Assembly: GCF_002864685.1 (NCBI RefSeq)
Contig: NZ_NMQZ01000017.1
Location: 1 to 64,000 of the forward strand
Length of the DNA stretch: 64,000 nucleotides
Direction of reading: 5' to 3'
Origin: Alloalcanivorax mobilis
GTDB taxonomy: Bacteria > Pseudomonadota > Gammaproteobacteria > Pseudomonadales > Alcanivoracaceae
Shown: one piece after another, positions 34,802-50,130 of the stretch
Position numbering within the stretch: the first letter of the stretch is position 1
How the letters are laid out: each line of letters begins with the position of its first letter
Program-made: the position numbers and the translations under genes
Notes under the pieces: model-generated
Database searches by the model: none
What the model was told of the DNA's origin: nothing
Seen by the model: only the letters and a program-made list of their open reading frames with translations

Positions 34802-34815
34802 CTTGTTCTAGTTGT
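34802..34815 (+). promoter_or_regulatory. upstream activator motif 1 (CTTGTTCTAGTTGT)
   Basis: One of three exact copies of this 14-mer in the window. It starts 171 bases before the -24 element of the sigma54-like promoter at 34973, the same distance as at the other two copies. Confidence 0.75.
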
Positions 34816-34972
34816 CTTATCGTCGGTCGCCACGGCGCACGCGGATCGGGCGCCGCTGTCGCGCGGGCGCTCCAATGCGGGGCGGTTGGCGATGACTCGC
34901 TTGGCTGACGACAACCAGTGTTTAAAAAAATACCCATTAAAAACATGAAGATAGTGCTGCGGCTCGAAAAGC

Positions 34973-34988
34973 TGGCACGTGAAATGCG
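34973..34988 (+). promoter_or_regulatory. sigma54-like promoter, transporter 1
   Basis: TGGCACGTGAAATGCG has GG and GC separated by ten bases, as required for RpoN promoters (consensus TGGCACGN4TTGCW). An A/T-rich block with ACCC-TT-AAAAACATG precedes it by about 40 bases, as in the second copy. Confidence 0.75.
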
Positions 34989-35009
34989 TTTTAAAGTTGG
35001 TGGTGATGC

Positions 35010-35023
35010 CTTGTTAGTACAAG
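35010..35023 (+). promoter_or_regulatory. GntR/HutC-type operator CTTGTTAGTACAAG
   Basis: Half sites CTTGT and ACAAG around four bases, a typical HutC/UTRA operator shape. It starts 37 bases after the sigma54 -24 element, just downstream of the expected transcription start, where a repressor would block. Confidence 0.7.
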
Positions 35024-35194
35024 TGAGGTTGCCAACCAGGACGCCGGGTATGAATCAGAACCGATATGGCGCCGCGAACTGTCCCAGCGTTTCCCAGGGC
35101 CTGGATTTAGAGAAGCGGCTCTCTCGTATCCCGTGAGCGGGGCACGAAGCAGACGTCGTGTCACGATTTTTTGTTCGCCTCAAGGAGTTTCCGA

Positions 35195-36199
35195 ATGCCG
35201 ATCCAGAGTTTGCCTCGCCGTTTGCTAACGGCTCTGATCGCGGCGGGCATGTATGCCTCCTGCCTGTTTGCCCCGGCTTTTGCCGAGCCTGCGATGACGA
35301 CCGTGCGCCTGGCACAGAATCTGTCACCGATCTCCGGCATCACGATTGTTGCCAAGGAGCGGGGCATTTTCGAGAAACACGGCTTAAACGTTGTGGTATC
35401 CAATTTCACGTCCGGCCGGTTGGCGCTGGAAGCGACCATCGGTGGCGGCGCCGACATCGCCACCACGGCTGAGGCGCCGGTCACCGCCGCCGCCATGGCG
35501 GGCCAGGAGATCGCGTTCCTGACCAGGATGGAGTACTCGGATCTGAAGACACTGGTAACCACCGCCTCCGGCATTGAAACGATCCAGGATCTTGAGGGCA
35601 AACGCCTTGGTCTGGCCACTGGAACCGGCAGTGAGGTGTATGTGTCGGCACTGCTGAAGGCAGCCGGCCTGACCAAGGGCGACGTTCGCCTGGTCAGCCT
35701 CAAGCCGCAAACCATGGTGTCCGCGTTGGCGGCCGGCGGAGTGGACGCCATTAATATCTGGGAGCCGCATATCACCAATGCCCGCAAAGCGCTGGGTGAT
35801 CAGGTGCGGCAGATCGATACCGCTGGAATTTACTCCGAGACTTTCAATATCGTCACCATGCAACCCTACCTTGAAAAGAACCGTGACACGGTGACACGCT
35901 TTCTCGAAGCGATGATCGAGGCGGAAGGCTGGATCAAGGCTCACCCCGACGAGGCGCCGGTGATTATCGCCAGGGCGGTGGGGATGAACGTCGACGATCT
36001 TGTCTCGGTGTGGCAGGACTACATTTTTAACGTGGTCATCGATCAGCGCACCCTGGACGTACTGCACGCGCACGCGCGCTGGCGTCTGGAGACCGGTAAC
36101 GCGCCGACCGGGGCGACCATGCCTGACTTCTCCACGGTGATTTTCCCGGACGTTCTGGGCGAAATCGATTCATCCCGTGTGAAGATCGCGATTCGCTGA
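35195..36199 (+). CDS. ABC transporter substrate-binding protein (NitT/TauT family)
   Basis: A 334-residue periplasmic binding protein with a signal peptide (residues 1 to about 29). Its TauA/SsuA-like fold shows VRLAQNLSPISGITIVAKERGIFEKHGL, GGADIATTAEAPV, and LEGKRLGLATGTGSE. These proteins feed sulfonates, nitrate-like or other small oxyanions to ABC permeases; the ligand cannot be read. The ATG at 35195 follows CAAGGAG. It is transcribed from a sigma54-like promoter and followed by a permease gene, but no ATPase gene is next to it. Confidence 0.9.
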   Translation: MPIQSLPRRLLTALIAAGMYASCLFAPAFAEPAMTTVRLAQNLSPISGITIVAKERGIFEKHGLNVVVSNFTSGRLALEATIGGGADIATTAEAPVTAAAMAGQEIAFLTRMEYSDLKTLVTTASGIETIQDLEGKRLGLATGTGSEVYVSALLKAAGLTKGDVRLVSLKPQTMVSALAAGGVDAINIWEPHITNARKALGDQVRQIDTAGIYSETFNIVTMQPYLEKNRDTVTRFLEAMIEAEGWIKAHPDEAPVIIARAVGMNVDDLVSVWQDYIFNVVIDQRTLDVLHAHARWRLETGNAPTGATMPDFSTVIFPDVLGEIDSSRVKIAIR

Positions 36200-36212
36200 G
36201 GGAGAATCTGAA

Positions 36213-36968
36213 TTGAATGTGCGCACCCTGGAAGTCGCCCTGCGCTGGTCGTCGATACCGCTGTTGCTGATGATCTGGGAGGTGACCTCCCGTTCTGGCG
36301 TGGTCAACGCCGTATTATTTCCGCCGCCGTCTCTGGTGGCGCTTGCCGGGCTTGAATATCTGCGTTCCGGTTTGATGGTTCAGGACCTGATGTGGAGCCT
36401 TTCCCGCGTGGCGGTCGGTTTCGTGGTGGGCGGCGTGGCGGGAAGCCTGGTCGGCGTGCTGACAGGCAGCAGCCAGCTTGTTTCCGCCGCGTTGTCGCCG
36501 ATTTTTCAGATGCTGCGTCCGATTCCTCCGATCGCCTTCGTGCCGATCGTGATCGTCTGGTTCGGCCTGAGTGAGACCGGCAAATGGTTTCTGGTGTTCT
36601 GGGGCGTATTTTTCACCGTCTGGCTATCGGCACACCTGGGTGTGCAGCGGGTTGACGAGACGCTGCTGCGAGCCGCGCGTTGCCTTGGCACGCCGCGCCG
36701 GCGGATGCTCTTCGACGTGCTGATGCCCGCCTCTCTGCCTTATATCTTCATGGGTTTGCGCACCGCCATCAGCGTTTCGTTCTACACCCTGGTGGCCGCT
36801 GAATTGGCCGGTGCCTTCGCCGGCATCGCTTATCGCCTGGACGTTACCCAGCAGAACATGCAGATCGATCGCATGATGTTCGGTTTGATTCTATTGGGTC
36901 TGATCTCGGCTATCACCGACCGAATCTTCGGCTGGCTCACGCAGCGGGTAGTGCGTTGGAACCACTGA
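36213..36968 (+). CDS. ABC transporter permease (TauC/SsuC type)
   Basis: A 251-residue inner-membrane permease with about six helices and the EAA-type loop AARCLGTPRRRMLFDVLMPASLPYIFMG (near 150-180) that contacts the ATPase. The start is TTG at 36213 behind GAGGGAGAA; GTG at 36219 is possible. It follows the binding protein by 13 bases. The missing ATPase is probably the gene at 41282. Confidence 0.88.
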   Translation: MNVRTLEVALRWSSIPLLLMIWEVTSRSGVVNAVLFPPPSLVALAGLEYLRSGLMVQDLMWSLSRVAVGFVVGGVAGSLVGVLTGSSQLVSAALSPIFQMLRPIPPIAFVPIVIVWFGLSETGKWFLVFWGVFFTVWLSAHLGVQRVDETLLRAARCLGTPRRRMLFDVLMPASLPYIFMGLRTAISVSFYTLVAAELAGAFAGIAYRLDVTQQNMQIDRMMFGLILLGLISAITDRIFGWLTQRVVRWNH

Positions 36969-37002
36969 CCGCCGCTCCTCCACCAACCCATGGAAGCACG
37001 CC

Positions 37003-38397
37003 ATGAATCCGCTTCATCGACAATCGCTGGCCATCGCCGCGTTGGCGCGGGCCTATCGCCGCGAAACCTTCACTCCCGCCGACATCATTGGCGAAATCCA
37101 CCGCCGTATTCAGGCGCGCGGCCGCGATGGCGTATGGACCGCCCTGGTGCCGGAACAAGCGCTGATGCAACGCGCCCACGAGTTGGCTGATCAAAGCCCC
37201 GAGGCGTTACCGCTTTACGGTATTCCTTTCTCGCTCAAGGACAACATCGATGCCGCCGGGCTGGATACCACCGCGAGTTGTCCGGCGTACGCCTATCGTC
37301 CGGCGCGTTCCGCGCGCACGGTCGCATTGTTGGAAGCGGCCGGGGCGATTCTGATTGGCAAGAACACCATGGATCAGTTCGCCACTGGTCTGGTCGGTAT
37401 TCGCGCACCGCAACATCCGGTCAACAGTTTCAACGCCGAGTATATTCCCGGTGGGTCGAGTTCCGGTTCAGCGGTGGCGGTCGCCACCGGGCTGGTCAGC
37501 TTCGCGTTGGGCAGCGACACCGGCGGCTCAGGGCGCATTCCCGCCGCGCTTAACAACATCGTGGGGCTCAAGCCGACGCCGGGTCTGATCAGCACCGCCG
37601 GCATGGTATACGCGAATCGGTCGTTTGATTGTGTGCCTATCTTCGCGCTGGATTGCGCGGACGCGCAGAGCGTGTTCGACGTGCTGGCGGTGGATGATCC
37701 TGATGATCCGTACCAACGGCGCCAGGCGGCGCCGTCGCGGCCGCCGCTCGCGGAGCGCGACTTTATAGTCGGAGTGCCCACCGGCGAGCAGCGCACTTTT
37801 TTTGACGACGACGATGCCGAGCGTTGCTTTGAGCGCGCCATCGAACAGATGGTGGGGCTTGGCGCGCGCATCGTGGATGTCGACTACGCTCCGTTCAAGG
37901 AAGCCGGCGATCTGTTGTTCGAGGGGCCGCCGCTCGCCGAGCGGCTCGCCTCGGTCGGCGATTTCGTACGTTCCCATGCGCGGCAATGCGACCCGGTGGT
38001 CGCCGCGATTATCGAGAAGGCGTCCGGCTACACCGCGGTGGACTTCGTGCGTTATCAATATCGCCTGCGTGAGCTTGAGGTCGAGGTGGACCGTGCGTTC
38101 TCCAGCATCGACTTGTTGATGGTGCCGACGGCGGCGACCGCCTACCGCATCGATGCGGTGCGTGCCGATCCGGTCCGGCTTAACCGGCACATGGGGCATT
38201 ACACTTATTTCGCCAATCTATTGGATCTATGCGCCCTGGCCGTGCCGGCGGGGTTGCGGGGCAATGGCCTGCCGTTTGGCGTGTGCCTGCTGGCGCCCGC
38301 CGGGCGGGATCGCGCCCTGATCCCACTCGGCAGCCGCTTCCAGGCTCTGCAAGGGCTCGCCCCGGGTGCGCCTGTTTTACAGCCAGAGCCTGTTTGA
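37003..38397 (+). CDS. allophanate-hydrolase-like amidase (AtzF N-domain type)
   Basis: A 464-residue amidase-signature enzyme with the catalytic triad Lys79 (in GIPFSLKDNID), cis-Ser near 152 (PGGSSSGSA) and Ser176 (in DTGGSGRIP). The segments SFDCVPIFALDCADA and DLCALAVPAGLRGNGLPFGVCLLAP are close to allophanate hydrolase (AtzF/DUR1 type), but the C-terminal domain of the full-length enzyme is absent. It would hydrolyse an amide or ureido bond, releasing ammonia. It lies 34 bases after the permease, so it probably acts on the imported compound. The true substrate is unknown. Confidence 0.85.
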   Translation: MNPLHRQSLAIAALARAYRRETFTPADIIGEIHRRIQARGRDGVWTALVPEQALMQRAHELADQSPEALPLYGIPFSLKDNIDAAGLDTTASCPAYAYRPARSARTVALLEAAGAILIGKNTMDQFATGLVGIRAPQHPVNSFNAEYIPGGSSSGSAVAVATGLVSFALGSDTGGSGRIPAALNNIVGLKPTPGLISTAGMVYANRSFDCVPIFALDCADAQSVFDVLAVDDPDDPYQRRQAAPSRPPLAERDFIVGVPTGEQRTFFDDDDAERCFERAIEQMVGLGARIVDVDYAPFKEAGDLLFEGPPLAERLASVGDFVRSHARQCDPVVAAIIEKASGYTAVDFVRYQYRLRELEVEVDRAFSSIDLLMVPTAATAYRIDAVRADPVRLNRHMGHYTYFANLLDLCALAVPAGLRGNGLPFGVCLLAPAGRDRALIPLGSRFQALQGLAPGAPVLQPEPV

Positions 38398-38659
38398 CAC
38401 GCTGCTGATGGCGATAACCGTGCCGCCGCCATCTGGGCGGCGCCGAGGCGCTGCCGTGTGCTCCCTGCCGCGGCCCAGGACCGGTCCGTGCCACCGTGCT
38501 TTCCCGGATTGTTAATAAGCAAATCGAAAAAATGAGTTCTTGTCATAACCACCTGTATTTAGAGTGGCCTTCCTGCATTTCTTGATAAAACCCACGCCTA
38601 CCCGTCATCGGGCGGCTTCCGCCTGGATCAAAACGCGGTCGCCGCAACCCTGCCCCGCA
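38398..38659. other. intergenic region after the amidase
   Basis: No gene is visible. A CTTGTCATAACCAC half-match to the GntR-type operator lies at 38539-38552. Confidence 0.5.
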
Positions 38660-38673
38660 CTTGTTCTAGTTGT
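38660..38673 (+). promoter_or_regulatory. upstream activator motif 2 (CTTGTTCTAGTTGT)
   Basis: Exact copy of the 14-mer, 171 bases before the -24 element at 38831. Confidence 0.75.
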
Positions 38674-38830
38674 TGTAGCCCAGGGCACGGCAGCGCCCGT
38701 TGAGCGGGCGCGGGCACGGTGCGTTTGCCCCAGCGGGGGGCAAACCGCGCGGTTTTACTCAACCAGCTTTTTCTACCGTAAAAAAATAACCCTTTTAAAA
38801 ACATGGAGATAGCTTGTTGCCCGAAAAAGC

Positions 38831-38846
38831 TGGCACGGCAAATGCG
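38831..38846 (+). promoter_or_regulatory. sigma54-like promoter, transporter 2
   Basis: TGGCACGGCAAATGCG keeps GG and GC ten bases apart. The flanks AAAAGCTGGCACG and AAATGCGTTTTA are shared with the promoter at 34973, which shows a common origin of both control regions. Confidence 0.78.
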
Positions 38847-38867
38847 TTTTATAGGCAGTGGTGATGT

Positions 38868-38881
38868 CTTGTTAGTACAAG
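38868..38881 (+). promoter_or_regulatory. GntR/HutC-type operator CTTGTTAGTACAAG
   Basis: Identical to the site at 35010-35023 and again 37 bases after the -24 element. Confidence 0.7.
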
Positions 38882-38907
38882 TGAAATCCACAACGAGGAA
38901 GCCGGAC

Positions 38908-40308
38908 ATGAATCACGGTAAATACGGATTGGCGGTCTGCCTGAGTGCCGCTTTAAGCCTGATCACCGCTCCCGCTTGGGCGGAGAATATTCGCATTGGC
39001 ATTGGCCACCAGAGCATGGTGACCAACACCGTCTCTGGTGGTGTGGTGCTGGAAAAACTGGGTTTGATCGAGAAATACCTGCCGAAGGATGGCAAGTACG
39101 CCGACGCGGACTACGACATTGTGTTCAAGGATTACGATTCCGGGCCGCCGATCACCAACCAGATGATGGCCGGCAAGCTGGACTTCGGTGTGATGGGAGA
39201 TTATCCGCTGATCGTCAACGGCGCCAAGTTTCAGCAGAGCGGCCGGGCGCAATCACGCTTTATCGCGATTACCGGTTACAACCGTGAAGGCACTGGCAAC
39301 GGCATCGTGGTACCGGTGGATTCCGATGCGCAGAGCCTGCAGGACCTGGCCGGAAAATCCATCTCCACGCCGGTGGGCAGCGCCGCCTGGGGCATGACCC
39401 TTAAAGCCCTGCGCGACGAAGGTCTGTTCGACAAAATCACCATCGTCAACCAATCGCCGCCGGTGGGTGCCGCCAACATCGCCGCTGGAAAAATCGATGC
39501 GCACGCGGATTTCTGCCCCTGGTCCGAGATCATGGAATTCCGTGGTACCGGCCGGAAAATCTACGACGGTCGCCAGGCCGGCGTGCCGACGTTCCACGGC
39601 ATCGTGGTGCGCGAGGACTACGCGAAGAAATACCCGGAAGTGGTTCAAGCCGTGCTTGAGGCCACCCTGGAAGCGCAGAAATGGATTCGTGACGACCCGA
39701 TGCGCGCGGCGGTCAAGGTGGCCGAGTGGACCGGTGTCGATAGGGAAGTGTTGTATCTGTACTTCAGCAACGGCGGCATCACCGCCACGGACGCCAGCGT
39801 CAAGCCCGAGTGGGTGGAGGCCATGAAGTACGACCACCAACTGCTGCAGAAAGAAAAGCAGATCCCGGATCTCGATTTCGACGCCTGGGTGGACGACAGC
39901 TACATCAAAAAGGCCTATGCCGCCGCCGGCCTGGATTATCAGAAAGCGGTGGACAGCATGGTCGAGCCGACGCCGGATAATCCGCACCTCGAAGCGGCGC
40001 AGATCTGGTTCGCCGACGAAGGCATCAAGAGCTACGACAGCATTGCCGCCATGCTCAAAGCGGTGGGCACCCACGATGCCGATGACATCAATGTCAGCTA
40101 CGTCTACGACAAGTCCAGCGGCTTGAAACTGTTTGGCAAAACCGCCTTTTACGTGGCCGACGGCACCGGATACGCCGCCTTTATGCGTCGCGATGATGCC
40201 CGTGAGTTCGCTGGTGAAGGCAGCGTTTACAGCTATCAGCAGGTCCTGAAAGCGTCCGCCACCGCGCAGTCCGCCGTGGTCGTGAAAGGGGCGGTCGCGG
40301 CTTTATAG
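38908..40308 (+). CDS. ABC transporter substrate-binding protein, large NitT/TauT type
   Basis: A 466-residue periplasmic protein with a signal peptide (to about residue 25, PAWA cleavage). It is longer than TauA/SsuA (usually about 320), with an extra C-terminal lobe (about 330-466). Family patterns include ENIRIGIGHQSMVTNTVSGG, KLDFGVMGDYPLIV and GKSISTPVGSAAWGM. Its ligand is unknown. The ATG at 38908 follows ACGAGGAAG. It is transcribed from the second sigma54-like promoter and heads a long gene series to 48509. Confidence 0.88.
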   Translation: MNHGKYGLAVCLSAALSLITAPAWAENIRIGIGHQSMVTNTVSGGVVLEKLGLIEKYLPKDGKYADADYDIVFKDYDSGPPITNQMMAGKLDFGVMGDYPLIVNGAKFQQSGRAQSRFIAITGYNREGTGNGIVVPVDSDAQSLQDLAGKSISTPVGSAAWGMTLKALRDEGLFDKITIVNQSPPVGAANIAAGKIDAHADFCPWSEIMEFRGTGRKIYDGRQAGVPTFHGIVVREDYAKKYPEVVQAVLEATLEAQKWIRDDPMRAAVKVAEWTGVDREVLYLYFSNGGITATDASVKPEWVEAMKYDHQLLQKEKQIPDLDFDAWVDDSYIKKAYAAAGLDYQKAVDSMVEPTPDNPHLEAAQIWFADEGIKSYDSIAAMLKAVGTHDADDINVSYVYDKSSGLKLFGKTAFYVADGTGYAAFMRRDDAREFAGEGSVYSYQQVLKASATAQSAVVVKGAVAAL

Positions 40309-40333
40309 CGGCCATCCCGGAAGGAGAAAGAGC

Positions 40334-41224
40334 ATGAGTCTGGAAAAGAGCGAGATCGGCAGCCCGGTGATCGACCCGGTCGACACCCCAGCCACCGACA
40401 CCGCGGTGGCTGGGCCGGCGCCGGTGAAGCGTCGCGCGCGCCGCCTGCCGGAGGCGGTGAACCGATACCTGGTGCGCGCCACCGCGCTGATCGTGGCGAT
40501 TCTGATCTGGCACTGGGCATCGACCAGCGGCTTTAACCTGTTCATCAATTTCGAAAACGTGCCCGGGCCACTGGTGGTGTGGAACGCGCTGATGCAGGAG
40601 ATCGTCAGCAAGACTTTTTACGTGCACATTCTGTACAGCCTGCAGCGTATCGGCATCGCCTACCTCATCGCCGTGGTGTTGGGCGTGGCGCTGGGTGTGC
40701 TGATGGGCCGCTGGCGGCTGGCCGAGGACATCATCGCGCCGTACATCGAACTGTTGCGCCCGATTCCGGCGGTGGCGTGGATTCCGCTGGCGATTCTGAT
40801 GATGCCCAGCGAGGAGTCGAGCATCATCTTCATCACTTTTCTGGGCGCGTTGTTTCCGATCGTGATCAATACCGTCCACGGCGTCGAGCAGACCCCCAAG
40901 GTGTTGGTGCGCGCGGCGCGCAGTCTGGGCGCCAGCAACGCCGCGATCCTGCGCCATGTGGTATTGCCCGGTGCCTTGCCCAGCATCGTCGCCGGGTTGG
41001 CCATCGGCATGGGGGTGGCCTGGTTTTCCCTGCTGGCCGGGGAAATCATCAGTGGCCAGTACGGCATCGGTTACTTCACCTGGTCCGCCTACACCCTGAT
41101 CGAGTACCCGAAGATCATCATCGGCATGTTGATGATCGGCGGTCTGGGGACCTTGTGCACCCTGATGATCAAGATGGCGTGCCGGCCGTTGTTGCGCTGG
41201 CAGGCGCAGGGGAAGAACGCATGA
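40334..41224 (+). CDS. ABC transporter permease (SsuC/TauC type)
   Basis: A 296-residue permease with a polar N-terminal tail of about 40 residues and six membrane helices. The EAA loop is ARSLGASNAAILRHVVLPGALPSIVAGLAIG. The ribosome site is GGAAGGAG. It is co-transcribed with the preceding binding protein. Confidence 0.9.
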   Translation: MSLEKSEIGSPVIDPVDTPATDTAVAGPAPVKRRARRLPEAVNRYLVRATALIVAILIWHWASTSGFNLFINFENVPGPLVVWNALMQEIVSKTFYVHILYSLQRIGIAYLIAVVLGVALGVLMGRWRLAEDIIAPYIELLRPIPAVAWIPLAILMMPSEESSIIFITFLGALFPIVINTVHGVEQTPKVLVRAARSLGASNAAILRHVVLPGALPSIVAGLAIGMGVAWFSLLAGEIISGQYGIGYFTWSAYTLIEYPKIIIGMLMIGGLGTLCTLMIKMACRPLLRWQAQGKNA

Positions 41225-41281
41225 AGAACGCATCTTTGAGCACCCCTTTTAATCCCAGCATCGTATCGCCAGGAGCATCAC

Positions 41282-42151
41282 ATGACTTCCGCGCTTGATA
41301 TTTCGAGAACCTCGCCAGCACACCCGCAACGGGGCGGCACTCGCAAAGCCCGTGACCGGGGGCACATCCAGATCCGCGATGTGTCGGTGGAATTTGAACG
41401 CAACGGCGATTGGATGGCGGCCGTGAAGCGGGCCAATCTGGAGATCAAGCCCGGTGAGTTCGTCTGTTTGCTGGGCCCCTCCGGCTGCGGCAAATCGACC
41501 CTGCTGAACACCGTGGCCGGGTTCGTCAACGCCACCCGTGGCGAGCTGCTGGTGGACGGTCAGCCGGTCACCGCGCCGGGGCCGGATCGCGGCATGGTGT
41601 TCCAGCAGCACTCCCTGTTTCCCTGGAAAACGGTGCGCGACAACGTTGCCTTTGGGCCGCTGATGGCGGGCATGGGCCGCACCGAGGCACTCAGCCTGGC
41701 GCGCACCTTTCTTTCCCTGGTGGGGTTGTCCGCCCACGCCAGCGCTTACCCGGCCACGTTATCTGGCGGCATGCAGCAGCGCGTCGGTATTGCCCGGGCG
41801 CTGGCCAATTATCCCAGTGTGCTGTTGATGGACGAGCCGTTCGGCGCGCTCGACGCGCAGACGCGCATCATGATGCAAGAGAGCCTGCTGGAGATCTGGA
41901 GTGAGTTTGGCAACACCGTGTTGTTCGTGACCCACGACATCGACGAAGCGGTGTTTCTGTCCGATCGCATCGTGATCATGAGCGCCAGCCCGGGGCGCAT
42001 CATCGCCGACATCCAGGTGTCGTTGCCGCGCCCGCGTACCCAGGACCTGCTGACCAGCCCGGACTTTATCGAACTCAAGCGCGAATGCCTGGACCTGATT
42101 CGCCGGGAAACGTTGCGCGCGTTCGAACAGCAAAACAGCGGCGGGCGCTGA
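41282..42151 (+). CDS. ABC transporter ATP-binding protein (SsuB/TauB type)
   Basis: A 289-residue ATPase with Walker A GPSGCGKSTL, the signature LSGGMQQRVGIARAL, Walker B VLLMDEPFGALD and the switch histidine in VTHDIDEA. It is the only ATPase for two permeases (36213 and 40334), so it probably energises both. The ATG at 41282 is preceded by GCCAGGAGCA. Confidence 0.93.
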   Translation: MTSALDISRTSPAHPQRGGTRKARDRGHIQIRDVSVEFERNGDWMAAVKRANLEIKPGEFVCLLGPSGCGKSTLLNTVAGFVNATRGELLVDGQPVTAPGPDRGMVFQQHSLFPWKTVRDNVAFGPLMAGMGRTEALSLARTFLSLVGLSAHASAYPATLSGGMQQRVGIARALANYPSVLLMDEPFGALDAQTRIMMQESLLEIWSEFGNTVLFVTHDIDEAVFLSDRIVIMSASPGRIIADIQVSLPRPRTQDLLTSPDFIELKRECLDLIRRETLRAFEQQNSGGR

Positions 42152-42194
42152 ACCGTGGAGGCGCCGCGCACACACAGGTTCCCACATGCCATGA

Positions 42195-42219: not shown

Positions 42220-42978
42220 GTGACCAAGACCATTACCCAGCCGCTGTCCAACCGGTCGCCGCAGCCGCTTTACGTGCAGATCAAGGACCAGTTGCGGCGC
42301 CGCATTCTGGAGGGTGATTACCGGCCCCATGAGCGGTTGCCCTCGGAGAACGAGCTGATGAATGCGTTTGGCGTCAGCCGCATCACCATCCGCCAGGCGC
42401 TGCGCGATCTGCACAACGAAGGTCTGGTGTTCAGCGCCCAGGGCAAGGGCACTTTCGTCAGCAAGCCCAAGGCGGTGCAGAGCGTGCGCAACCTGCAGGG
42501 TTTTGGCGAGGCGATGAGTGCCCAGGGTTACGAGGCATCGGCGCGGCTGCTCAGCATTCAGCAATTGAAAGCGCCCAAGGCGGTGGCCGCGGCTTTGCGT
42601 CTGGAAAGCGGTGAAGAGACGGTGGAGGTGACGCGAATCCGCTTTCTGAATCGCGAGGCGTTGTCTCTGGAACACAGCTATTTTCCGCTCGACATCGGCC
42701 GGCGCATGTTCGGCATGGATCTCAGTGGCGACATTTTTCCGATGCTGGAGAACCTGTTCGCCACGCCGTTGGGCGAAGCCAGCATCCGCATTGAAGCGGC
42801 GCTCTCCGACAAGGAGACCCAACACCATCTCAATCTTCAACCCGGCGAGCCGGTGCTGCGCGTCGAACGGCTGACCCACGACAGAATGGGGCGGCCAATC
42901 GATTTCGAGTACCTGAGTTTCCGGGGCGATTCTTTCAAATATCACTTCCGAGTGGATCGGAAACAGGAGGCGTTATGA
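42220..42978 (+). CDS. GntR/HutC-family regulator with UTRA domain
   Basis: A 252-residue repressor-type protein. The winged helix is at about 15-80 (YVQIKDQLRRRILEGDY, LPSENELMNAFGVSRITIRQALRDL), and a C-terminal UTRA effector domain follows (about 95-245). HutC-type proteins bind palindromes with TTGT/ACAA half sites, and such sites occur at 35010, 38868 and 46303. The start is GTG at 42220 with GGGGGCAAC in front. It overlaps the following flavoprotein gene by four bases, so it is embedded in the operon it probably controls. Confidence 0.9.
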   Translation: MTKTITQPLSNRSPQPLYVQIKDQLRRRILEGDYRPHERLPSENELMNAFGVSRITIRQALRDLHNEGLVFSAQGKGTFVSKPKAVQSVRNLQGFGEAMSAQGYEASARLLSIQQLKAPKAVAAALRLESGEETVEVTRIRFLNREALSLEHSYFPLDIGRRMFGMDLSGDIFPMLENLFATPLGEASIRIEAALSDKETQHHLNLQPGEPVLRVERLTHDRMGRPIDFEYLSFRGDSFKYHFRVDRKQEAL

Positions 42979-44708
42979 ACATCGAGGACCTGACCATCAT
43001 CGACACCGATGTGCTGGTTATCGGCGGCGGCACCGCCGGGCCGATGGCGGCGGTAACGGTTAAGGAAAACAACCCCAAGCTGGATGTGATCCTGCTTGAG
43101 AAAGCCAATGTGAAGCGCTCGGGCGCGATTTCCATGGGCATGGACGGCCTCAACAACGCCATCGTTCCCGGCCACGCCACGCCGGAACAGTACGTGCGTG
43201 AAATCACCATCGCCAACGATGGCATCGTCGACCAGCCGGCGCTGATGGCCTACGCCCAGCGTTCCTTTCCGATGATCGAGAAACTGGATGCCTGGGGCGT
43301 GCATTTTCAGAAGGATGAAACCGGCGACTACGACATGAAGAAGGTTCACCACCTGGGTACCTATGTGCTGCCCATGCCGGAGGGCCACAACGTCAAGAAA
43401 ATTCTTTATCGGCGGTTGCGCCGGCATCGGGTAAAAGTGGAAAACCGCTATCAGGCCACCCGGTTGCTCAAGGATACCGAGGGCAACATCGCCGGCATGA
43501 TCGGCGTCAACACCCGCACCGGTGAGCCGATCATTATTCGCGCCAAGGCGGTGATCATGGCCACCGGGGCGGCCGGGCGCATCGGCCTGCCGCATTCGGG
43601 CTACTTGTTCGGCACCTACGAGAACCCGGCCAACTCCGGTGATGGCCACGCCATGGCGTATCACGCCGGCGCCGACCTGGCCAACCTGGAGTGTTATCAG
43701 GTCAATCCGCTGCTTAAGGATTACAACGGCCCGGCCTGCGCCTATGTGACCGGGCCACTGGGTGGCTTCACCTCCAACGCGTTCGGCGAACGCTTTATCG
43801 AATGCGATTACTGGTCCGGCCAGATGATGCTCGAGTTTTTCAAGGAACTGGAATCCGGCAAAGGGCCGGTGTTCTTGAAACTCGATCACCTGGCGGAAGA
43901 AACCATCCAGGAAATCGAAACCGTTTTGCACACCAACGAGCGGCCCAGCCGTGGCCGCTTCCACGACGGCCGGCACACCAACTACCGCCAGCAGATGGTG
44001 GAGATGCACATCTCCGAGATCGGCTTTTGCAGCGGCCACTCCGCGTCTGGTGTGTGGGTGGATGAAACCGGCGCGACCACGGTGCCAGGGCTGTACGGCG
44101 CCGGCGACATGGCTTCGGTGCCCCACAACTACATGCTCGGTGCGTTCGTGTACGGCCAGATTTGCGGCGAAAGCGCGGCCGCGTTCGCCAGCGAACGCGG
44201 CGAGATCAATCTGGATCGTCACCTCATCGATCAGGAACTGGTGCGCCTGCGCGCGCCGCTGGAACGTCAAGACGGCATCCCCCCGGAACAGATGGAGTAC
44301 AAGGTGCGCCGGCTGGTCAACGACTACCTGCAACCGCCCAAGGTCACCCGGCGCATGGAGATCGGCCTGGAACGGATTCTGGCGGTGCGCGAAGACCTCA
44401 AGCTGCTGAAAGCCAACGACGCCCATGAGTTGATGCGTGCCATGGAAGTGCACTCCATCGTCGACTGCGCGGAGATGGCGGCGCGCGCGTCGCTGTATCG
44501 CACCGAATCGCGCTGGGGGCTGTATCACTACCGAGTCGATCACCCCGACACCGACGAACAGCGCTGGTTTTGCCACAGCCGGCTGTACAAGGACGATAAC
44601 GGCAACATGGCCCACGGCACCCGCCCGGTAGCGCCGTACATCGTCTCCCTGGGCGAAGAGAAAGACGCCTACAACCAGTTGCGCGTCAAGCAAGCCGCCA
44701 ACGCCTGA
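42975..44708 (+). CDS. AprA-like FAD-dependent oxidoreductase
   Basis: A 577-residue flavoprotein of the fumarate reductase/succinate dehydrogenase superfamily, closest in motif to the alpha subunit of adenylylsulfate reductase. It has FAD-binding GGGTAGPMAAV (about 14-24), RSGAISMGMDGLNNA, NSGDGHAMAYHAGA, and LYGAGDMASVPHNYMLGAFVYG, where a histidine sits at the place of the AprA active-site histidine. No membrane anchor is visible. A two-cluster ferredoxin gene follows, as aprA and aprB pair. The substrate is unknown; it need not be APS. Related genes are annotated only as flavoprotein subunits. Confidence 0.85.
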   Translation: MNIEDLTIIDTDVLVIGGGTAGPMAAVTVKENNPKLDVILLEKANVKRSGAISMGMDGLNNAIVPGHATPEQYVREITIANDGIVDQPALMAYAQRSFPMIEKLDAWGVHFQKDETGDYDMKKVHHLGTYVLPMPEGHNVKKILYRRLRRHRVKVENRYQATRLLKDTEGNIAGMIGVNTRTGEPIIIRAKAVIMATGAAGRIGLPHSGYLFGTYENPANSGDGHAMAYHAGADLANLECYQVNPLLKDYNGPACAYVTGPLGGFTSNAFGERFIECDYWSGQMMLEFFKELESGKGPVFLKLDHLAEETIQEIETVLHTNERPSRGRFHDGRHTNYRQQMVEMHISEIGFCSGHSASGVWVDETGATTVPGLYGAGDMASVPHNYMLGAFVYGQICGESAAAFASERGEINLDRHLIDQELVRLRAPLERQDGIPPEQMEYKVRRLVNDYLQPPKVTRRMEIGLERILAVREDLKLLKANDAHELMRAMEVHSIVDCAEMAARASLYRTESRWGLYHYRVDHPDTDEQRWFCHSRLYKDDNGNMAHGTRPVAPYIVSLGEEKDAYNQLRVKQAANA

Positions 44709-44731
44709 ACCCGATAGCGAGGAGAATTCCC

Positions 44732-44965
44732 ATGCCCCTAGCCAACCATCACACCTCCGTTCCGGTGCTGGTCGACGAAGAGAAATGCATCGCCGACAAG
44801 GGTTGCACCGTGTGCATCGACGTCTGCCCTCTGGACGTGCTGTGGATCGACGAGACCACCGGCAAAGCGCACATGAAATACGACGAGTGCTGGTACTGCA
44901 TGCCCTGCGAGGCGGACTGCCCGACCGACGCGGTAACCGTCAACATCCCCTATCTGCTGCGCTGA
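44732..44965 (+). CDS. AprB-like 2[4Fe-4S] ferredoxin
   Basis: A 77-residue ferredoxin with two cluster motifs: CIADKGCTVCIDVCP, with a five-residue first gap like AprB, and CWYCMPCEADCP, like the CWECYSC motif of AprB. It lacks the C-terminal extension of dissimilatory AprB. It lies 23 bases after the flavoprotein and is the likely electron-transfer partner. Ribosome site AGGAG. Confidence 0.88.
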   Translation: MPLANHHTSVPVLVDEEKCIADKGCTVCIDVCPLDVLWIDETTGKAHMKYDECWYCMPCEADCPTDAVTVNIPYLLR

Positions 44966-44972
44966 GGTGACC

Positions 44973-45929
44973 ATGAAGCAATATCAGGACCCCGAACTTC
45001 AGGAGCTCGCCGAACGGCTCGCCTCCGACGACGCAGGCCTGCGCCGGGTGGCGGTGCTCGACCTGGTGGATTGCCCGGAGCCGGAAGCGGTGGAGTTGTT
45101 GATCCAGGCGCTCAATGACGCGGACCCGCTGGTGCGCCAGGAAGCCGCCAAGGTGGTCGACGAATTCGAATCCGCGCAGATGGCCGACGCGCTGATCGCC
45201 GCGCTCAATGACAGCGACGAAGTGGTGCGCAATGCCGCCGCCCACGCGCTCTCCGATCTTAAGGACCCGGCCGCCGCCGCGCCGCTGCTGGCGGCGCTGC
45301 AGGAAAGCCGTGACCCGTTCGTGGTGGCCGGCATTCTGCGCGCGCTCAAGCCGCTGCGTGATGCCGACGCCCGTGAGCCGGCCCGGGCGCGACTGGACCA
45401 CGCCGACCCGCGCGTGCGCCGCGAAGCGGTGGCGGTGCTCGGCTGGCTGAAGGAAGACGCCAACCTGCCGATGCTGATCGAGCGCGCCCGCGACGACGTC
45501 GACCCGGAAGTGCGCCGCGCCGCGGTGGGCGCTTTGGTGTACGCCGACGCCGCCGCGGTGGCCGAGGCGCTCAACGGCATTGTCACCGACGAGCACTGGC
45601 AGGTGCGCGCCGAGGCGATCAACAGCATCGGCAAACTGGACCATCAACAGGGGCTGGATCTGCTGATCACCGCCAGCCGGGACACCACCTGGCAGGTGCG
45701 CGAAAAGGCGGCCGACGCGATCGGCAAGCTGCGGCGCGTGGAAGGGGTGCCCGCCCTGGGCGAGTGTTGCCGCGATCCGATGAGCAATGTGCGCAAGGCC
45801 ACCATCGGCGCGCTTGGCGCGATCGCCGATGAGCAGTGCCGGCCTTATATCGAAACGGCCCTCGACGATCCGGACCCGGACGTGCGCAAGCTGGCGCGCT
45901 GGGCGCAATCCCGTTTGAGCGCCGCCTGA
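44973..45929 (+). CDS. HEAT-repeat protein
   Basis: A 318-residue soluble protein built from about nine HEAT-like (PBS-lyase type) repeats of roughly 31 residues. The repeating pattern is DPxVRxxAAxALxxL, for example [15 protein letters not shown] and [15 protein letters not shown]. Such proteins act as scaffolds or help insert cofactors; in phycobilin lyases the same repeats carry a chromophore. ATG 44973 follows GAGGTG; a GTG at 44967 is also in frame. Its place between two ferredoxins suggests assembly or docking of the redox complex. Confidence 0.88.
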
Positions 45930-45966
45930 GCGGCGCCGAACGGCCAACCGGAATAAGGAGACCAAC

Positions 45967-46290: not shown

Positions 46291-46302
46291 CCCGTCGATG
46301 AA

Positions 46303-46316
46303 CTTGTCATAACAAG
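46303..46316 (+). promoter_or_regulatory. GntR/HutC-type operator CTTGTCATAACAAG
   Basis: Same half sites CTTGT and ACAAG with a different four-base centre. It lies 50 bases upstream of the DUF971 gene, inside the series, which hints at a second promoter. Confidence 0.6.
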
Positions 46317-46365
46317 CTGCGCCGCGCCCGGCCACTGGCCCTGGCGCGGCGCCGGGGAGATCACC

Positions 46366-46680
46366 ATGAGCGATCCGATGGCGGCACCGGAAGAAGTGCA
46401 TCTGCTGAGCGGTGGCGCCGCGCTGGAACTGCATTGGCAACACGGCCAGCGCAGCCGCATCGACAGCGATGTGCTGCGCGGCGCCTGTGGTTGCGCCGCC
46501 TGCCAGGCGTTGCGCCAGCGCGGCGAAACGGTGGCCGGCACCGGTGTCACCCTGACCGGCGCGGAGCTGGCCGGCGTCGGCGCGTTGCAGTTGTTTTTCT
46601 CCGATGGTCACAACCGGGGCCGCTATCCATGGCGGTATTTGCGCGATCTGGCCGAGCCGTCCGGAGCCGGCGGTGACTGA
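46366..46680 (+). CDS. DUF971 protein
   Basis: A 104-residue protein of the DUF971 (gamma-butyrobetaine hydroxylase N-terminal-like) family. It has LRGACGCAACQALRQ, with a CxCxxC-like metal-binding motif, and FSDGHNRGRYPWRYLRDL. DUF971 proteins are often beside Fe-S-related genes. A role in cluster handling or metal binding is possible. It overlaps the following transporter gene by eight bases. Confidence 0.85.
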   Translation: MSDPMAAPEEVHLLSGGAALELHWQHGQRSRIDSDVLRGACGCAACQALRQRGETVAGTGVTLTGAELAGVGALQLFFSDGHNRGRYPWRYLRDLAEPSGAGGD

Positions 46681-47677
46681 CGCCGGCGCGCACTCGCTGG
46701 CGCGGCGCCTGGGCGCACTGGGCCCGGGAGTGACGCTGTGTTTGCTGACCGCGCTGGCCGGCCAGTTTCTCGCCGAGCACTACGGTGGCCCGGCGCTGTT
46801 GATCGTGCTGTTACTGGGCTTTGTGTTTATTCCCCATCACGGCGAGCGCCGCGCCGAACCGGGCATCGCCTTTTGCTGCGGCCCGCTGTTGCGAATCGGT
46901 GTGGCGCTGCTGGGCGCGCGCATCAGCCTCGGCGAATTCCAGAACGTGTGGATACAGCCGGTAACGGTGGTCGCGGTGACGGTGCCCCTGGTGTTGGCGC
47001 TGGCGATCATCGTCGGTCGGGCGCTGGGTTTGCCGGCCGCCCAGAGTCTGGTGGTGGGCGCCTCGGTGGCGATCTGCGGCGTGGCCGCGGCGATGGCGGT
47101 GGCGGCGGCGCTGCCGCGTGAACGGCTGGAGGCGCGCGGCCTGATCAGCGTGGTGGTCAGTGTGCCGGCGCTGGGCACGGTGGCGCTGCTGGTCTACCCG
47201 GCGCTGGCCGGCGCGCTCGGCTTCGCCGATGGGCAGATCGGCGTGTTGCTGGGCGCCACCATCCACGATGTCGGGCAGGCGGCGGCGTCGGGGTATCTGA
47301 TTTCCGAGAACGCCGGCCACCTGAGCACGCTGACCAAGCTGCTACGGGTCAGCCTGCTGGTGCCACTGGTGATGGCGGTGGGCTGGGCGTTCCGGCGTGG
47401 TGACGGCGAGCGCATGCCGGCACCGCTGTTCTTGCTCGGCTTTGCCGCGTTGATGATGGCCAACAGCGCCGGCCTGCTGCCGGCGGCGCTCGGCGCGCTG
47501 ATTGCCCAGGCTTCGTTCTGGTGCCTGTTACTGACCATGGCGGCGCTCGGTTCGCGCACCTCGTTGCGTGAGCTGGCCGCCCAAGGGTGGCGCCCGGTGG
47601 CGTTGCTGGTGGGGTTGAGCCTGGCGCTTCTGGCCAGCGCCATGGCGCTGGTGGCGGCCCTGCCGGTGATCGCCTGA
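46673..47677 (+). CDS. YeiH-family transporter (putative sulfate exporter type)
   Basis: A 334-residue membrane protein with about nine to eleven helices. Family segments include LRIGVALLGARISLGEF, VVGASVAICGVAAAMAVAAAL and GATIHDVGQAAASGYLISE. YeiH proteins are named putative sulfate exporters, but their substrate is little tested. The start is GTG at 46673 behind GGAGCCGGC. Its presence suggests that the pathway makes an anion that must leave the cell; this is inference. Confidence 0.88.
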   Translation: MTDAGAHSLARRLGALGPGVTLCLLTALAGQFLAEHYGGPALLIVLLLGFVFIPHHGERRAEPGIAFCCGPLLRIGVALLGARISLGEFQNVWIQPVTVVAVTVPLVLALAIIVGRALGLPAAQSLVVGASVAICGVAAAMAVAAALPRERLEARGLISVVVSVPALGTVALLVYPALAGALGFADGQIGVLLGATIHDVGQAAASGYLISENAGHLSTLTKLLRVSLLVPLVMAVGWAFRRGDGERMPAPLFLLGFAALMMANSAGLLPAALGALIAQASFWCLLLTMAALGSRTSLRELAAQGWRPVALLVGLSLALLASAMALVAALPVIA

Positions 47678-47732
47678 GCGGCGCCGCCAAACCAACTGAT
47701 TTTTTTGCGTTGATAGACTGGAGGTAATACCG

Positions 47733-48509
47733 ATGGCAGCCCTAGGAAAGGAAAACGTACTGAGCGTGCACCACTGGAACGACACTCTGTTCAGCTTCCG
47801 CACCACCCGTGATCAGGCCCTGCGTTTCGAGAACGGCCACTTTGTGATGATCGGGCTGGAGCTGGAAGGCAAACCGCTGATGCGCGCCTACAGCATCGCC
47901 AGCGCCAATCACGAAGAGCATTTGGAATTTCTCAGCATCAAGGTGCCGGATGGTCCGCTCACGTCGCGCTTGCAACATCTTAAAGAAGGCGATGCGCTGA
48001 TCGTCAGCCGCAAGCCGGTGGGCACGCTGGTGGTGCACGATCTGAACGCGGGCCGGAACCTGTTCCTGCTCGGCACCGGCACCGGCCTGGCGCCGTTCAT
48101 GAGCATCATCAAGGACCCGGAAATCTACGAGCGCTTTGACAAGGTCGTGTTGGTGCACGGCGTGCGCTATGTCAGTGAGCTGGCTTACCACGACTACATC
48201 AGTGAAGCGCTGCACGAGCACGAATTTCTCGGTGATCTGATTCGCGACAAGCTGATTTACTACCCCACCGTGACCCGCGAACCGTTCCGCAATCAAGGCC
48301 GCATCACCACCCTGATCGAAAGCAACCGGCTCACCGATGACCTGGGCCTGGCGCCCCTTAACCCGGACACCGACCGGGTCATGCTCTGCGGCAGCCCGGC
48401 GATGCTCGACGAACTCACCACCATGCTCGACGCGCGTGGCTTCCAGGCCTCACCACATCAGGGCGAGACCGGTGATTATGTGATTGAGCGGGCGTTTGTG
48501 GAGCAGTAG
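47733..48509 (+). CDS. fpr: ferredoxin--NADP reductase
   Basis: A 258-residue FAD enzyme of the bacterial Fpr type with the FAD motif RAYSIASAN (about 51-59), GTGTGLAPFMSII for NADP binding (about 113-125) and LCGSPAMLDE. The C-terminus ends in VIERAFVEQ. It can pass electrons between NADPH and ferredoxin. Its position after two ferredoxin genes supports a chain NADPH - Fpr - ferredoxin - AprA/AprB-like enzyme. A housekeeping copy may exist elsewhere. Confidence 0.93.
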   Translation: MAALGKENVLSVHHWNDTLFSFRTTRDQALRFENGHFVMIGLELEGKPLMRAYSIASANHEEHLEFLSIKVPDGPLTSRLQHLKEGDALIVSRKPVGTLVVHDLNAGRNLFLLGTGTGLAPFMSIIKDPEIYERFDKVVLVHGVRYVSELAYHDYISEALHEHEFLGDLIRDKLIYYPTVTREPFRNQGRITTLIESNRLTDDLGLAPLNPDTDRVMLCGSPAMLDELTTMLDARGFQASPHQGETGDYVIERAFVEQ

Positions 48510-48513
48510 GGGA

Positions 48514-48664
48514 GGCCGCCGGACGCCGGACGCTAAACCCGAGACGGCGGAATATGGAGTGTTTCCTGTCGGTATGCCGGGAGCCCGCAGGAAACACTCC
48601 GATCATCTCAGCACAGGGTTAAGCGTCTGGCGTCTGGCGTCCGGCGTCTAGCATCTAGCATCAA
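48514..48664. repeat. inverted heptamer arms with central hairpin
   Basis: GGCCGCC/GGACGCC/GGACGCT units (48514-48534) face GCGTCTG x2, GCGTCCG, GCGTCTA, GCATCTA and GCATCAA (48623-48664). The centre holds a perfect 13-bp hairpin (48556-48568 with 48588-48600). It separates two convergent genes and overlaps the end of the porin gene. Confidence 0.9.
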
Positions 48665-49887
48665 AACACATACTGCATCTGTGGGCGGATTTCGGTGAAG
48701 CGGGCGTCGGCCTGTTCGGCGCCGATCACGCCGATCCTGAGGCGGAAACTCAGGCCTTTCAAATTGCCGGCGAAAGCGTAGGTAATGTCCAGATCGGTTT
48801 CGTCGGTGTCCACGGCGCCCAGGCGCTGGTATTGAGCGTAGCTGATCTGCGTGCTCCATTGGCTGCCGAAGCGGCGTTGCAGAGTGACTTTGTAGGCGTC
48901 GCCGGGGGCGCTGTTTTCCAGGGTCTGCGTCATCGAGTTGGTGAACAGCGGTCCGGAGGAATAGTTGAAGGGAGCGGGCAGGGCGCCACCGCCGTAGCTG
49001 TCCCGGTCTTCCAGGAAATGGTTCCAGGCCAGGGCCAGGGTGAATGGACCGCGAGCGGCGGACAGTTTCACGCCGGCGCCGCGGGCGTTGACGTCGTCGA
49101 GCAGATTGTCGCCATTGTCTTCGGCGTACAGCAGTTGCGCGGCCAGGGTGGGCGCGAAGCCGAGCAGCTCGCCGATCGGCCGATCCGCCTGAGCGTAATA
49201 GAGGTTGAACAGATCCGGCATGGAAAACGCCCAGCCCTGCCAGGCAGTACGCCCGGGCTGGTAGCGGGCGCCGGCGATCCAGGCGCCCTGGTCGCTGTCG
49301 GCGGCAACGCCGAAGCGGTCCAGGGCAAACTGGCTGACACGCTGGAAATCGTCGTCCGGCCGGCTTTTGATGCGCCGCAGGTAGTAACCGGAGAGCGTCA
49401 GACCCTCGACGCTGGTGTTGGTGAACGCCAGTGCTTCGAAAGTGACCGGGATCAAAAAGCCATCCGAGGGGTTGGCGAACGGCGTGTCCAGTTGCTGGCG
49501 CCCGAAGCGCAGGCGGTTGTCGCGGTTGGCGTATTGCAGCCAGGCCTCGCCAAGCACATCGGCGTTCTCCGGCAGGTTGGCGTTGCGCTTGGCGGGGTCG
49601 TCGTTCTGTAGTCCCAGGCCGTTGGACGCATAGAAAGTGCCGCCGGCGGAGACGCCCGCCCAGGGCGCGGTTTCGGCGTGCAGGCTGGCGCCCACGGCGA
49701 AGGTGTTCAGGGTATCGCCCTGTTCCGGCGCTTTGACGTTGTGGTAGGCGCGCAGGGTGCCGCTGACGCTGCCGTTCTCGAACGCGTCCCGCAGGTTATC
49801 CACCTGTTCGGCGGGCGCGGCGGCGGCGATGCCGTTCAGTGCCGTCAGGCCGGCGAGCAGGCCGGGTAAAAAAACAGGGTGTTTCAT
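48661..49887 (-). CDS. OprD-like outer-membrane porin
   Basis: A 408-residue porin with a signal peptide (about residues 1-24). The OprD/OprE-like start EQVDNLRDAFENGSVSGTLRAYHN is followed by RFGRQQLDTPFANPSDGFLIP and a terminal phenylalanine (MQYVF). Such porins let small anions or aromatic acids cross the outer membrane. Its promoter region has the same sigma54 and upstream-motif architecture as the two binding-protein genes, so it is probably the outer-membrane entry for the same compound. It is divergent from a LysR gene. Confidence 0.88.
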   Translation of the reverse strand: MKHPVFLPGLLAGLTALNGIAAAAPAEQVDNLRDAFENGSVSGTLRAYHNVKAPEQGDTLNTFAVGASLHAETAPWAGVSAGGTFYASNGLGLQNDDPAKRNANLPENADVLGEAWLQYANRDNRLRFGRQQLDTPFANPSDGFLIPVTFEALAFTNTSVEGLTLSGYYLRRIKSRPDDDFQRVSQFALDRFGVAADSDQGAWIAGARYQPGRTAWQGWAFSMPDLFNLYYAQADRPIGELLGFAPTLAAQLLYAEDNGDNLLDDVNARGAGVKLSAARGPFTLALAWNHFLEDRDSYGGGALPAPFNYSSGPLFTNSMTQTLENSAPGDAYKVTLQRRFGSQWSTQISYAQYQRLGAVDTDETDLDITYAFAGNLKGLSFRLRIGVIGAEQADARFTEIRPQMQYVF

Positions 49888-49943
49888 GGTCGCTTCCTCG
49901 TCACGAAGTTGTCTTAATCGGCGAATAAATCGGGGAAGACAGA

Positions 49944-49959
49944 CGCAGGCGCCGTACCA
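49944..49959 (-). promoter_or_regulatory. sigma54-like promoter of the porin
   Basis: On the minus strand TGGTACGGCGCCTGCG has GG and GC ten bases apart. The flanking GCTGG is shared with the other two promoters. No CTTGT-N4-ACAAG palindrome follows. Confidence 0.65.
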
Positions 49960-50116
49960 GCGATGGGGAGAATCCCGCCGGCGCTTGTTTTAAAGGGGTG
50001 GCAACACATCAGTGGAGGATCGTCTGAAATCGGCCGGCGGCGCGGTATGCCTCGTGCTGGGGCACGCGCCGCCGCATCGGCCTGAAATCGGCGCAGCGTC
50101 GGCGACGGTGTTCAGG

Positions 50117-50130
50117 ACAACTAGAACAAG
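50117..50130 (-). promoter_or_regulatory. upstream activator motif 3 (CTTGTTCTAGTTGT)
   Basis: Exact minus-strand copy of the 14-mer, 171 bases upstream of the porin -24 element. It is also upstream of the LysR gene in the other direction. Confidence 0.75.

Follow-up and report, generated by a model that had tools for sequence, protein, structure and literature searches.

In this work, three neighbouring nutrient-uptake promoters with a common multi-part control region were characterised in the window, i.e. the whole analysed stretch of 64,000 nucleotides from Alloalcanivorax mobilis, to which all coordinates refer. Operon 1, on the forward strand, encodes an SsuA/NMT1-like substrate-binding protein (35195..36199) and an ABC permease (36213..36968), and is followed on that strand by an AtzF-type allophanate hydrolase (37003..38397), whose scores of 515 and 555 bits exceed two NCBIfam cut-offs. 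Operon 2, also on the forward strand, encodes a second SsuA/NMT1-like binding protein (38908..40308) and an ABC permease with its ATPase (40334..42151). A HutC-like regulator with GntR and UTRA domains lies next (42220..42978, forward), and an FAD oxidoreductase (PRK08275), a ferredoxin (read from the sequence) and a HEAT-repeat protein (42975..45929, forward) are the downstream genes of the conserved cluster. The assignment of the GntR/UTRA protein as a HutC ortholog was rejected at 143 bits, below the TIGR02018 cut-off of 220. The third promoter precedes the gene of an OprD-family porin on the reverse strand (48661..49887).

The −24/−12 elements are TGGCACGTGAAATGCG at site 1 (34973..34988, forward), TGGCACGGCAAATGCG at site 2 (38831..38846, forward) and TGGTACGGCGCCTGCG at site 3, the porin (49944..49959, reverse). 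The spacing TGG-N9/10-TGC is found at these promoters and conserved in their orthologs. Both strands of the window contain four matches to TGGYAC-N6-TGC against a Markov-1 expectation of 1.9, and three of the four are these promoters. The genome encodes rpoN, and the assignment of the promoters to the sigma54 type by an earlier sequence-only reading was thus supported; from their sequence, all three are very probably RpoN-dependent.

The same reading had described a 14-mer, CTTGTTCTAGTTGT, occurring three times with the TGG exactly 171 bp downstream, and both statements are exact: the copies lie at 34802-34815 (+), 38660-38673 (+) and 50117-50130 (−), and the TGG begins at 34973, 38831 and 49959. 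A genome-wide search showed that these are the only exact copies in 4.1 Mb. The 14-mer is composed of one or two CTTGTNNTA units. At site 1 the upstream motif (34802..34819, forward) holds two units of this type (CTTGTTCTA and GTTGTCTTA), and its counterparts are CTTGTTCTAGTTGTTGTA at site 2 (38660..38677, forward) and CTTGTTCTAGTTGTCCTG at site 3 (50113..50130, reverse). It takes the form of an asymmetric half-site or of a direct repeat of 9 bp, and no dyad symmetry was visible by eye in the 14-mer. Allowing up to three mismatches, eight matches were obtained in the window (shuffle mean 1.41, maximum 4). None of the eight two-mismatch copies genome-wide had a −24/−12 match 120-240 bp downstream. 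With at most one mismatch, the 14-mer was found in 24 of 46 genomes of the family, which is no enrichment, as the reversed control gave more matches; among 28 further loci inspected, three (L030, L036, L045) had TGGCAC at 172 bp. The geometry pattern alone was also rejected as a class-wide marker (12/369 genomes, own genome included, vs 20/369 for the reversed control); site 3 escapes this pattern, which requires TGGCAY. An A/T block reported between motif and promoter is present at all three sites and only loosely conserved in relatives, as aAAaCA....g.T; a clear IHF site was not found in it by eye.

In 3/3 window promoters, the −24 TGG is preceded at a distance of exactly 105 bp by an NtrC-like dyad: CGCTCCAATGCGGGGCG at site 1 (34868..34884, forward; 8/12 consensus positions), TGCCCCAGCGGGGGGCA at site 2 (38726..38742, forward; 10/12) and TGCCCCAGCACGAGGCA at site 3 (50048..50064, reverse; 9/12), the last being 57 bp from the proximal unit. 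Site 3 also has a weak box, TGCGCCGATTTCAGGCC (50079..50095, reverse; 7/12), 26 bp from that unit. Genome-wide, TGCNCC-N5-GGNGCA occurs at nine places including the site 2 dyad, vs three for the reversed control. Dyads with at least 8/12 positions were found in 52/54 promoters (44% of shuffles) and with at least 9/12 in 25/54 (8% of shuffles); the 54 comprise 51 loci and the three window sites, all having a TGGCA-type element preceded by at least 210 bp of sequence, and the shuffles here, as in the spacing and GntR co-occurrence tests below, preserve base composition only. The dyads deviate from consensus and the weaker boxes are poor matches. The variant right half GGGGCA is also found in the own genome upstream of a putative ntrB, directly before ntrC.

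Just downstream of each promoter there is an inverted CTTGTNNTA unit, at +42..+50 from the TGG at sites 1 and 2 and at +43..+51 at the porin. The sequence-only reading had seen little similarity in the porin spacer, a description that was incomplete, since the dyad at −105 and the inverted unit past the promoter are present there as at sites 1 and 2. At sites 1 and 2 this leader unit is part of an operator-like palindrome, CTTGTTAGTACAAG (35010..35023 and 38868..38881, both forward); at site 3 the inverted copy is the reverse complement of GTTGTCTTA (49908..49916, reverse). By eye, a palindrome of the GT-N4-AC operator type is present in the first two leaders and absent from the 14-mer and the porin leader. 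The leader sequence fits 7/8 positions by eye of the HutC operator TGTA-N2-TACA, as given in the accessible part of PMC12977541. No riboswitch was matched in the leaders at Rfam gathering scores.

Relatives' loci were analysed as the best 80 of 96. The −24/−12 element, motif and leader copy are kept in front of the orthologous binding-protein gene in Alloalcanivorax, Pseudomonas and Stutzerimonas, as well as in Billgrantia, Halomonas and Marinobacter; the elements were aligned from the three window sites and 35 loci (L049-L081, L088, L126). The orientation of the motif unit is fixed in gamma-, alpha- and beta-proteobacterial relatives, with 66 forward and one reversed, a count in which two-unit promoters may appear twice and from which edge artefacts at the left edge of L091 (two forward, three control) were dropped. 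The motif-to-TGG distance spans 151-184 bp across relatives, so 171 bp was rejected as a universal rule; helical phasing of the motif against the −24/−12 element was rejected as well, since 159, 169 and 177 bp are off phase as judged by hand. The expectation of a regulon whose promoters have an upstream motif in common, at conserved spacing, was otherwise supported. In a same-genus porin ortholog the motif is retained at 173 bp, as are the boxes (26 and 57 bp), and the leader has TTAGTACAAGT. Among ten further homologs (42-46% identity, phylum-wide draw), the motif with a sigma54 element was absent in 9/10. The FAD-gene promoter of alpha-type loci had no motif with a −24/−12 element at such spacing, and plasmid copies of promoter 1 gave no match.

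The unit and the first NtrC-like box are mainly separated by 26-27 bp, in some cases by roughly 10 bp more. In 14/25 representatives a box stood 26-27 bp away from the proximal unit, a result reached by 0/1000 shuffles; the 25 were hand-chosen (13 from the gamma group and 12 other) and the 26-bp spacing had been noticed before testing. Left out were near relatives (e.g. L087, L093, L098, L105, L112, L125, L128 and most Stutzerimonas and Marinobacter loci), L100, in which no motif was recognised, L119, and sites 1 and 2. Outside the main gamma group, the box was found in 6/12 (0/1000 shuffles), with motif-to-TGG distances of 151-174 bp. Box alignment on the TGG also exceeded chance, more weakly (8/25; 0/1000 shuffles). 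By averaging scores at single distances in the 13 promoters outside the gamma group, with a slightly different unit definition and L093 included, the result was non-significant on the motif (4.23 vs a null maximum of 4.46) and significant on the TGG (4.69 vs 4.62). L121 and L127 deviate from 26+10n spacing. The fixed geometry is better explained if the motif is coupled to the NtrC boxes rather than to the promoter, and this arrangement in distant bacteria suggests that the motif's regulator and NtrC may act together.

Of the best 80 of 96 loci, 49 encode a relative of the cluster's GntR-UTRA protein. The motif was present in 45 of these 49 against 4.7 expected from shuffles, and the motif with its inverted copy in 36 against 0.4. 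The motif was also found in 8 of the 31 GntR-negative loci, three of which stop soon past the permease gene (L052, L083, L125) and one within or just past the HEAT gene (L095); L092, L117 and L124 match the motif only with the first T, and L119 is the remaining exception. Conversely, L100 has a GntR gene, a sigma54 element and an 11/12 NtrC box, yet no clear motif. Because GntR genes and sigma54 elements go together in the loci analysed, co-occurrence gives no means of telling GntR from other partners of the promoter. It is likely, as judged from sequence, that the GntR/UTRA protein binds the 14-mer. Proteins of the GntR family usually bind palindromes, unlike the upstream motif. It is conceivable, if rather doubtful, that another regulator (e.g. 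of the AraC type, or a response regulator reading direct repeats) binds the motif and GntR only the leader palindrome. The 9-bp direct repeat with its strict orientation would fit this, as would a motif kept nearly constant although the GntR proteins are only 33-44% alike to that of the window. On the other hand, upstream and leader copies contain one common word, and among ten further ORFs scanned in L079 and L086 the sole other transcription factor was of the Crp type, in L086 only.

The sequence-only reading had taken the 14-mer as the site of a dedicated enhancer-binding protein looping to the sigma54 promoter, which is unlikely. Its constant distance to the −24/−12 element within the window and the fact that it precedes sigma54 promoters in many relatives agree with such a role; however, it lacks a dyad, its spacing is tied more closely to the NtrC boxes than to the promoter, and the place where enhancers usually lie is taken by NtrC-like dyads. 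A search for the RpoN activator brought up NtrC as the candidate and none on the window's contig. The own genome has eight activator matches above cut-off, of which the four strong domains were inspected; three carry a GAFTGA-type loop, namely NtrC, a NifA-like and a PilR-like protein (GSFTGA). A relative of the NifA-like protein was found at one locus only (L069, 40%; tblastn, best 80 of 96 loci). NtrC was above cut-off in 21/21 tested genomes with the promoter and, among the activators inspected, was the only one common to three activator-poor genomes (in those of L118 and L127, with five PF00158 matches each, two and three were inspected among the matches listed). Sites 1 and 2 are alike from −24 through the leader, so their shared spacing may partly be common descent, but copying of the promoter twice in the cluster, with spacing of no functional meaning, is a still less likely account of the whole, as site 3 resembles the other two mainly in the elements, which its ortholog retains at a shifted spacing (173 bp), and the set recurs in alpha-, beta- and gamma-proteobacteria.

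We hypothesize, with a probability of roughly 0.55, that NtrC and GntR act on a composite enhancer at the three sigma54 promoters of a nitrogen-scavenging regulon. What the sequence shows directly is which elements are present, how they are spaced and oriented, and that they are conserved; we infer that RpoN is used, that NtrC activates, that GntR binds, that a ligand exerts control and in which sense the regulation runs. Under nitrogen starvation, NtrC would switch on the promoters from its dyads, which precede the −24 element by about 105 bp, with weaker ones at about 136 bp. The promoters would also be gated by a local regulator, for which the GntR/UTRA protein (42220-42978) is the most likely candidate, acting from the CTTGTNNTA units beyond the NtrC sites and the inverted unit at the transcript start. 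The distance between the upstream unit and the first NtrC box would be fixed and probably helically phased, and therefore the two proteins probably touch. Without ligand, the regulator may hold NtrC or occlude the start region, perhaps through a loop joining its two sites; with ligand, it would release or help NtrC. More tentatively, a ligand-sensing GntR protein bound as half-site units might directly contact NtrC on an adjacent, helically phased site and be needed for NtrC action or veto it, in a design conserved across alpha-, beta- and gamma-proteobacteria, with a loop closed by the inverted site past the transcription start.

Classical NtrC enhancers, e.g. that of E. coli glnAp2, have two NtrC-type sites upstream of the sigma54 promoter. 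Two such sites, about 20 or 30 bp apart, are likewise seen here, but with an extra, probably phased site for a second protein and box right halves off consensus. To our knowledge, there are few cases in which it is understood how a general starvation signal (NtrC) and a specific substrate signal are joined at one sigma54 promoter. Among natural variants, the spacing of the two sites appears to shift in steps of about 10 bp, so that direct contact of a GntR-type regulator with NtrC can be tested. The porin and the allophanate-hydrolase operon are moreover placed in one putative regulon. Searches of an open-access library showed nothing specific on the cluster, on NtrC with GntR at such promoters or on composite NtrC enhancers; a P. 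stutzeri NtrC paper did not mention the terms tried, the accessible part of a B. cenocepacia NtrC paper contained nothing specific, and for SfnR sulfur regulation, a possibility considered, the paper search gave no lead. For atzF in Rhizobiales, NtrC control was predicted in the part of PMC5343134 available to us. At the Pseudomonas hutU and hutF promoters, HutC of the GntR family is reported with sigma54, NtrC and the sites Phut and Pntr, and the likeness lies in a sigma54 promoter (hutU), HutC as local repressor, NtrC-type sites and nitrogen catabolism (PMC12977541, accessible part). According to the same part, HutC protects a region that overlaps with the sigma54 site at hutU, or else the NtrC-like Pntr is itself bound by HutC, whereas here a separate half-site array precedes the first NtrC-like box by 26-27 bp and is accompanied by an inverted leader copy.

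The 14-mer upstream of the three sigma54-type promoters and its distance of 171 bp to the TGG of the -24/-12 element were as the sequence-only reading stated, and a genome-wide search returned no exact copies of the 14-mer except the three of sites 1–3. The pattern TGGYAC-N6-TGC has four matches on both strands of the window, three of which are sites 1–3, and all three promoters carry an NtrC-like dyad (box) at -105. An A/T block with AAAACA lies about 40 bp before the -24 element (34930–34950, 38787–38806, and 49985–50005); it is loosely conserved among the aligned gamma relatives.

Operon 1 comprises the genes for an SsuA/NMT1-like binding protein, a permease, and an allophanate hydrolase, and operon 2 those for another binding protein (the second), a permease, an ATPase, a GntR/UTRA regulator (GntR), a PRK08275-family FAD oxidoreductase, a ferredoxin (read from sequence), and a HEAT-repeat protein. 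Next come the genes for a YeiH-type exporter, whose score was under the cut-off, and for an FNR-like reductase. The gene under site 3 is an OprD-family porin. The best named matches were Alcanivorax sp. 24 and Alloalcanivorax (77–78%, among the best 80 of 96 loci). Because it encodes allophanate hydrolase and carries NtrC-like boxes, we infer that the cluster serves nitrogen scavenging. In Rhizobiales, comparative work predicts that atzF is controlled by NtrC (PMC5343134).

Relatives were defined as loci encoding homologs of the second binding protein (best 80 of 96). When the upstream regions of 35 loci were aligned with sites 1–3, the common elements were the upstream motif, TGCGCC-N5-GG, GCACCA..G.GC, the A/T block with AAAACA, the -24/-12 element, and TTAGTACAAGT in the leader. 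Most gamma relatives carry the motif as a 9-bp direct repeat (ACTTGNNNNACTTGTNNTA), and loci of the alpha, beta, and deeper gamma groups mostly have one ACTTGTATTA. The 80 loci, one further locus (L165), and the window were scanned for units 145–190 bp before a -24/-12 match; 66 hits were forward and 1 was reversed, with edge artefacts removed and two-unit promoters possibly counted twice, and 56 of the 66 forward hits belong to the binding-protein promoter. The leader copy, past the promoter, is inverted; the porin leader also has it, in the form GTTGTCTTA. One of three same-genus stretches encodes an ortholog of the porin (65% identity), with the same elements and the canonical leader. Among ten further homologs (398 genomes of the phylum), one (63%) has both motif and sigma54 element, 177 bp apart, and nine (42–46% identity) lack the combination, which counts against generality. 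The motif with its spacing is real and, by its conservation, functional.

In 14 of 25 representatives, a box stands 26–27 bp away from the unit nearer the promoter; the shuffle maximum is 7/25. Outside the main gamma group this spacing is kept in 6/12, while the motif–TGG distance spans 151 to 174 bp; the same 12 aligned on TGG reach at best 4/12, matched by 8 of 1000 shuffles, and TGG alignment over all 25 representatives gives 8, which, like the motif result for the 25, is beyond the shuffles. Both the motif–box and the TGG–box spacings are conserved, the former more so. Other boxes were found at 35, 36, 36, and 37 bp, and also at 56–57 and 67 bp, so that the steps measure roughly a turn of the helix, with the loci L121 and L127 outside this pattern. 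Single-distance averaging on the motif was significant for all 26 representatives (5.04 vs. a null maximum of 4.08), and for the 13 non-gamma-group representatives it was significant on TGG only. Since the windowed test was done after the spacing had been noticed, helical phasing of the motif to the boxes is likely but not proven.

The dyads are enriched (at least 8 of 12 in 52/54 promoters vs. 44% of shuffles), and the box upstream of the gene preceding ntrC, TGCACCATAATGGGGCA, has the same variant right half. The Pseudomonas NtrC consensus is quoted as GCACCA-N3-TGGTGC in the available text of PMC12977541. NtrC was over its cut-off in all 21 genomes tested, with 739 bits in the own genome, where sigma54-activator domains gave four strong and four weak matches and the strong four were inspected. 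The other three strong ones are a NifA-like protein (452 bits vs. a cut-off of 529), a response regulator here called PilR-like, which has the loop GSFTGA and reached no cut-off, and a second response regulator (L015 1057–2382, G000:C11) that is unlikely to act on sigma54 because a GAFTGA-type loop is missing. In the two relatives with the fewest activator matches (five each), the two inspected in one were NtrC and LuxO-like, and the three inspected in the other were NtrC, FlbD, and LuxO-like.

Presence of the motif tracks the GntR gene: the motif is present in 45 of 49 loci with GntR and in 8 of 31 without it. Four of these eight are cut loci, and of the four GntR loci that lack the motif, three have the variant ACTTGTATC. 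Among the GntR-less loci, a TGGCA-type -24/-12 match was found only in L052, L083, and L125, all of them cut, and the data therefore do not distinguish GntR from some other partner. At sites 1 and 2, the leaders fit by eye 7/8 positions of the GntR/HutC operator TGTA-N2-TACA (PMC12977541), and ten further ORFs scanned in two distant loci included no other shared regulator. An enhancer-binding protein that occupies the 14-mer and loops to the promoter is probably the wrong partner; a local regulator that is coupled to NtrC is the more likely owner of the motif.

The nearest known case found is the Pseudomonas hut system, in which HutC, a protein of the GntR family, acts as the repressor of a sigma54 promoter and has an NtrC-like site as a further target (PMC12977541); the present system may work alike. 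Unlike in hut, the window regulator is not HutC (143 bits vs. 220 required), and a separate, apparently phased half-site lies upstream of the NtrC-like boxes. No publication on the present system was found in the search listings of an open-access library without most subscription journals.

In Halomonadaceae, a further promoter with this layout is located inside the operon, between the binding-protein and permease genes (L059 11502–11700, L061 4122–4320, L069 11507–11700); its motif–TGG distance is 182–183 bp, and its motif is farther from the NtrC-like boxes by one helical turn. Cytochrome c genes adjoin distant versions of the cluster (L079 14575–15213, L086 13918–15738), and the L086 neighbourhood additionally holds a SCO1/SenC gene. 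The cluster also occurs in a record titled Bordetella parapertussis MAG (L113), a label that may be wrong. A TwoAYGGAY RNA element lies at 12072–12196 on the minus strand of the window (51.3 bits vs. a gathering score of 43). In another genome (L022 1501–1686, G005), the palindrome TGGCACAATCGTGCCA lies 168 bp after a copy of the 14-mer with one mismatch, perhaps by chance.
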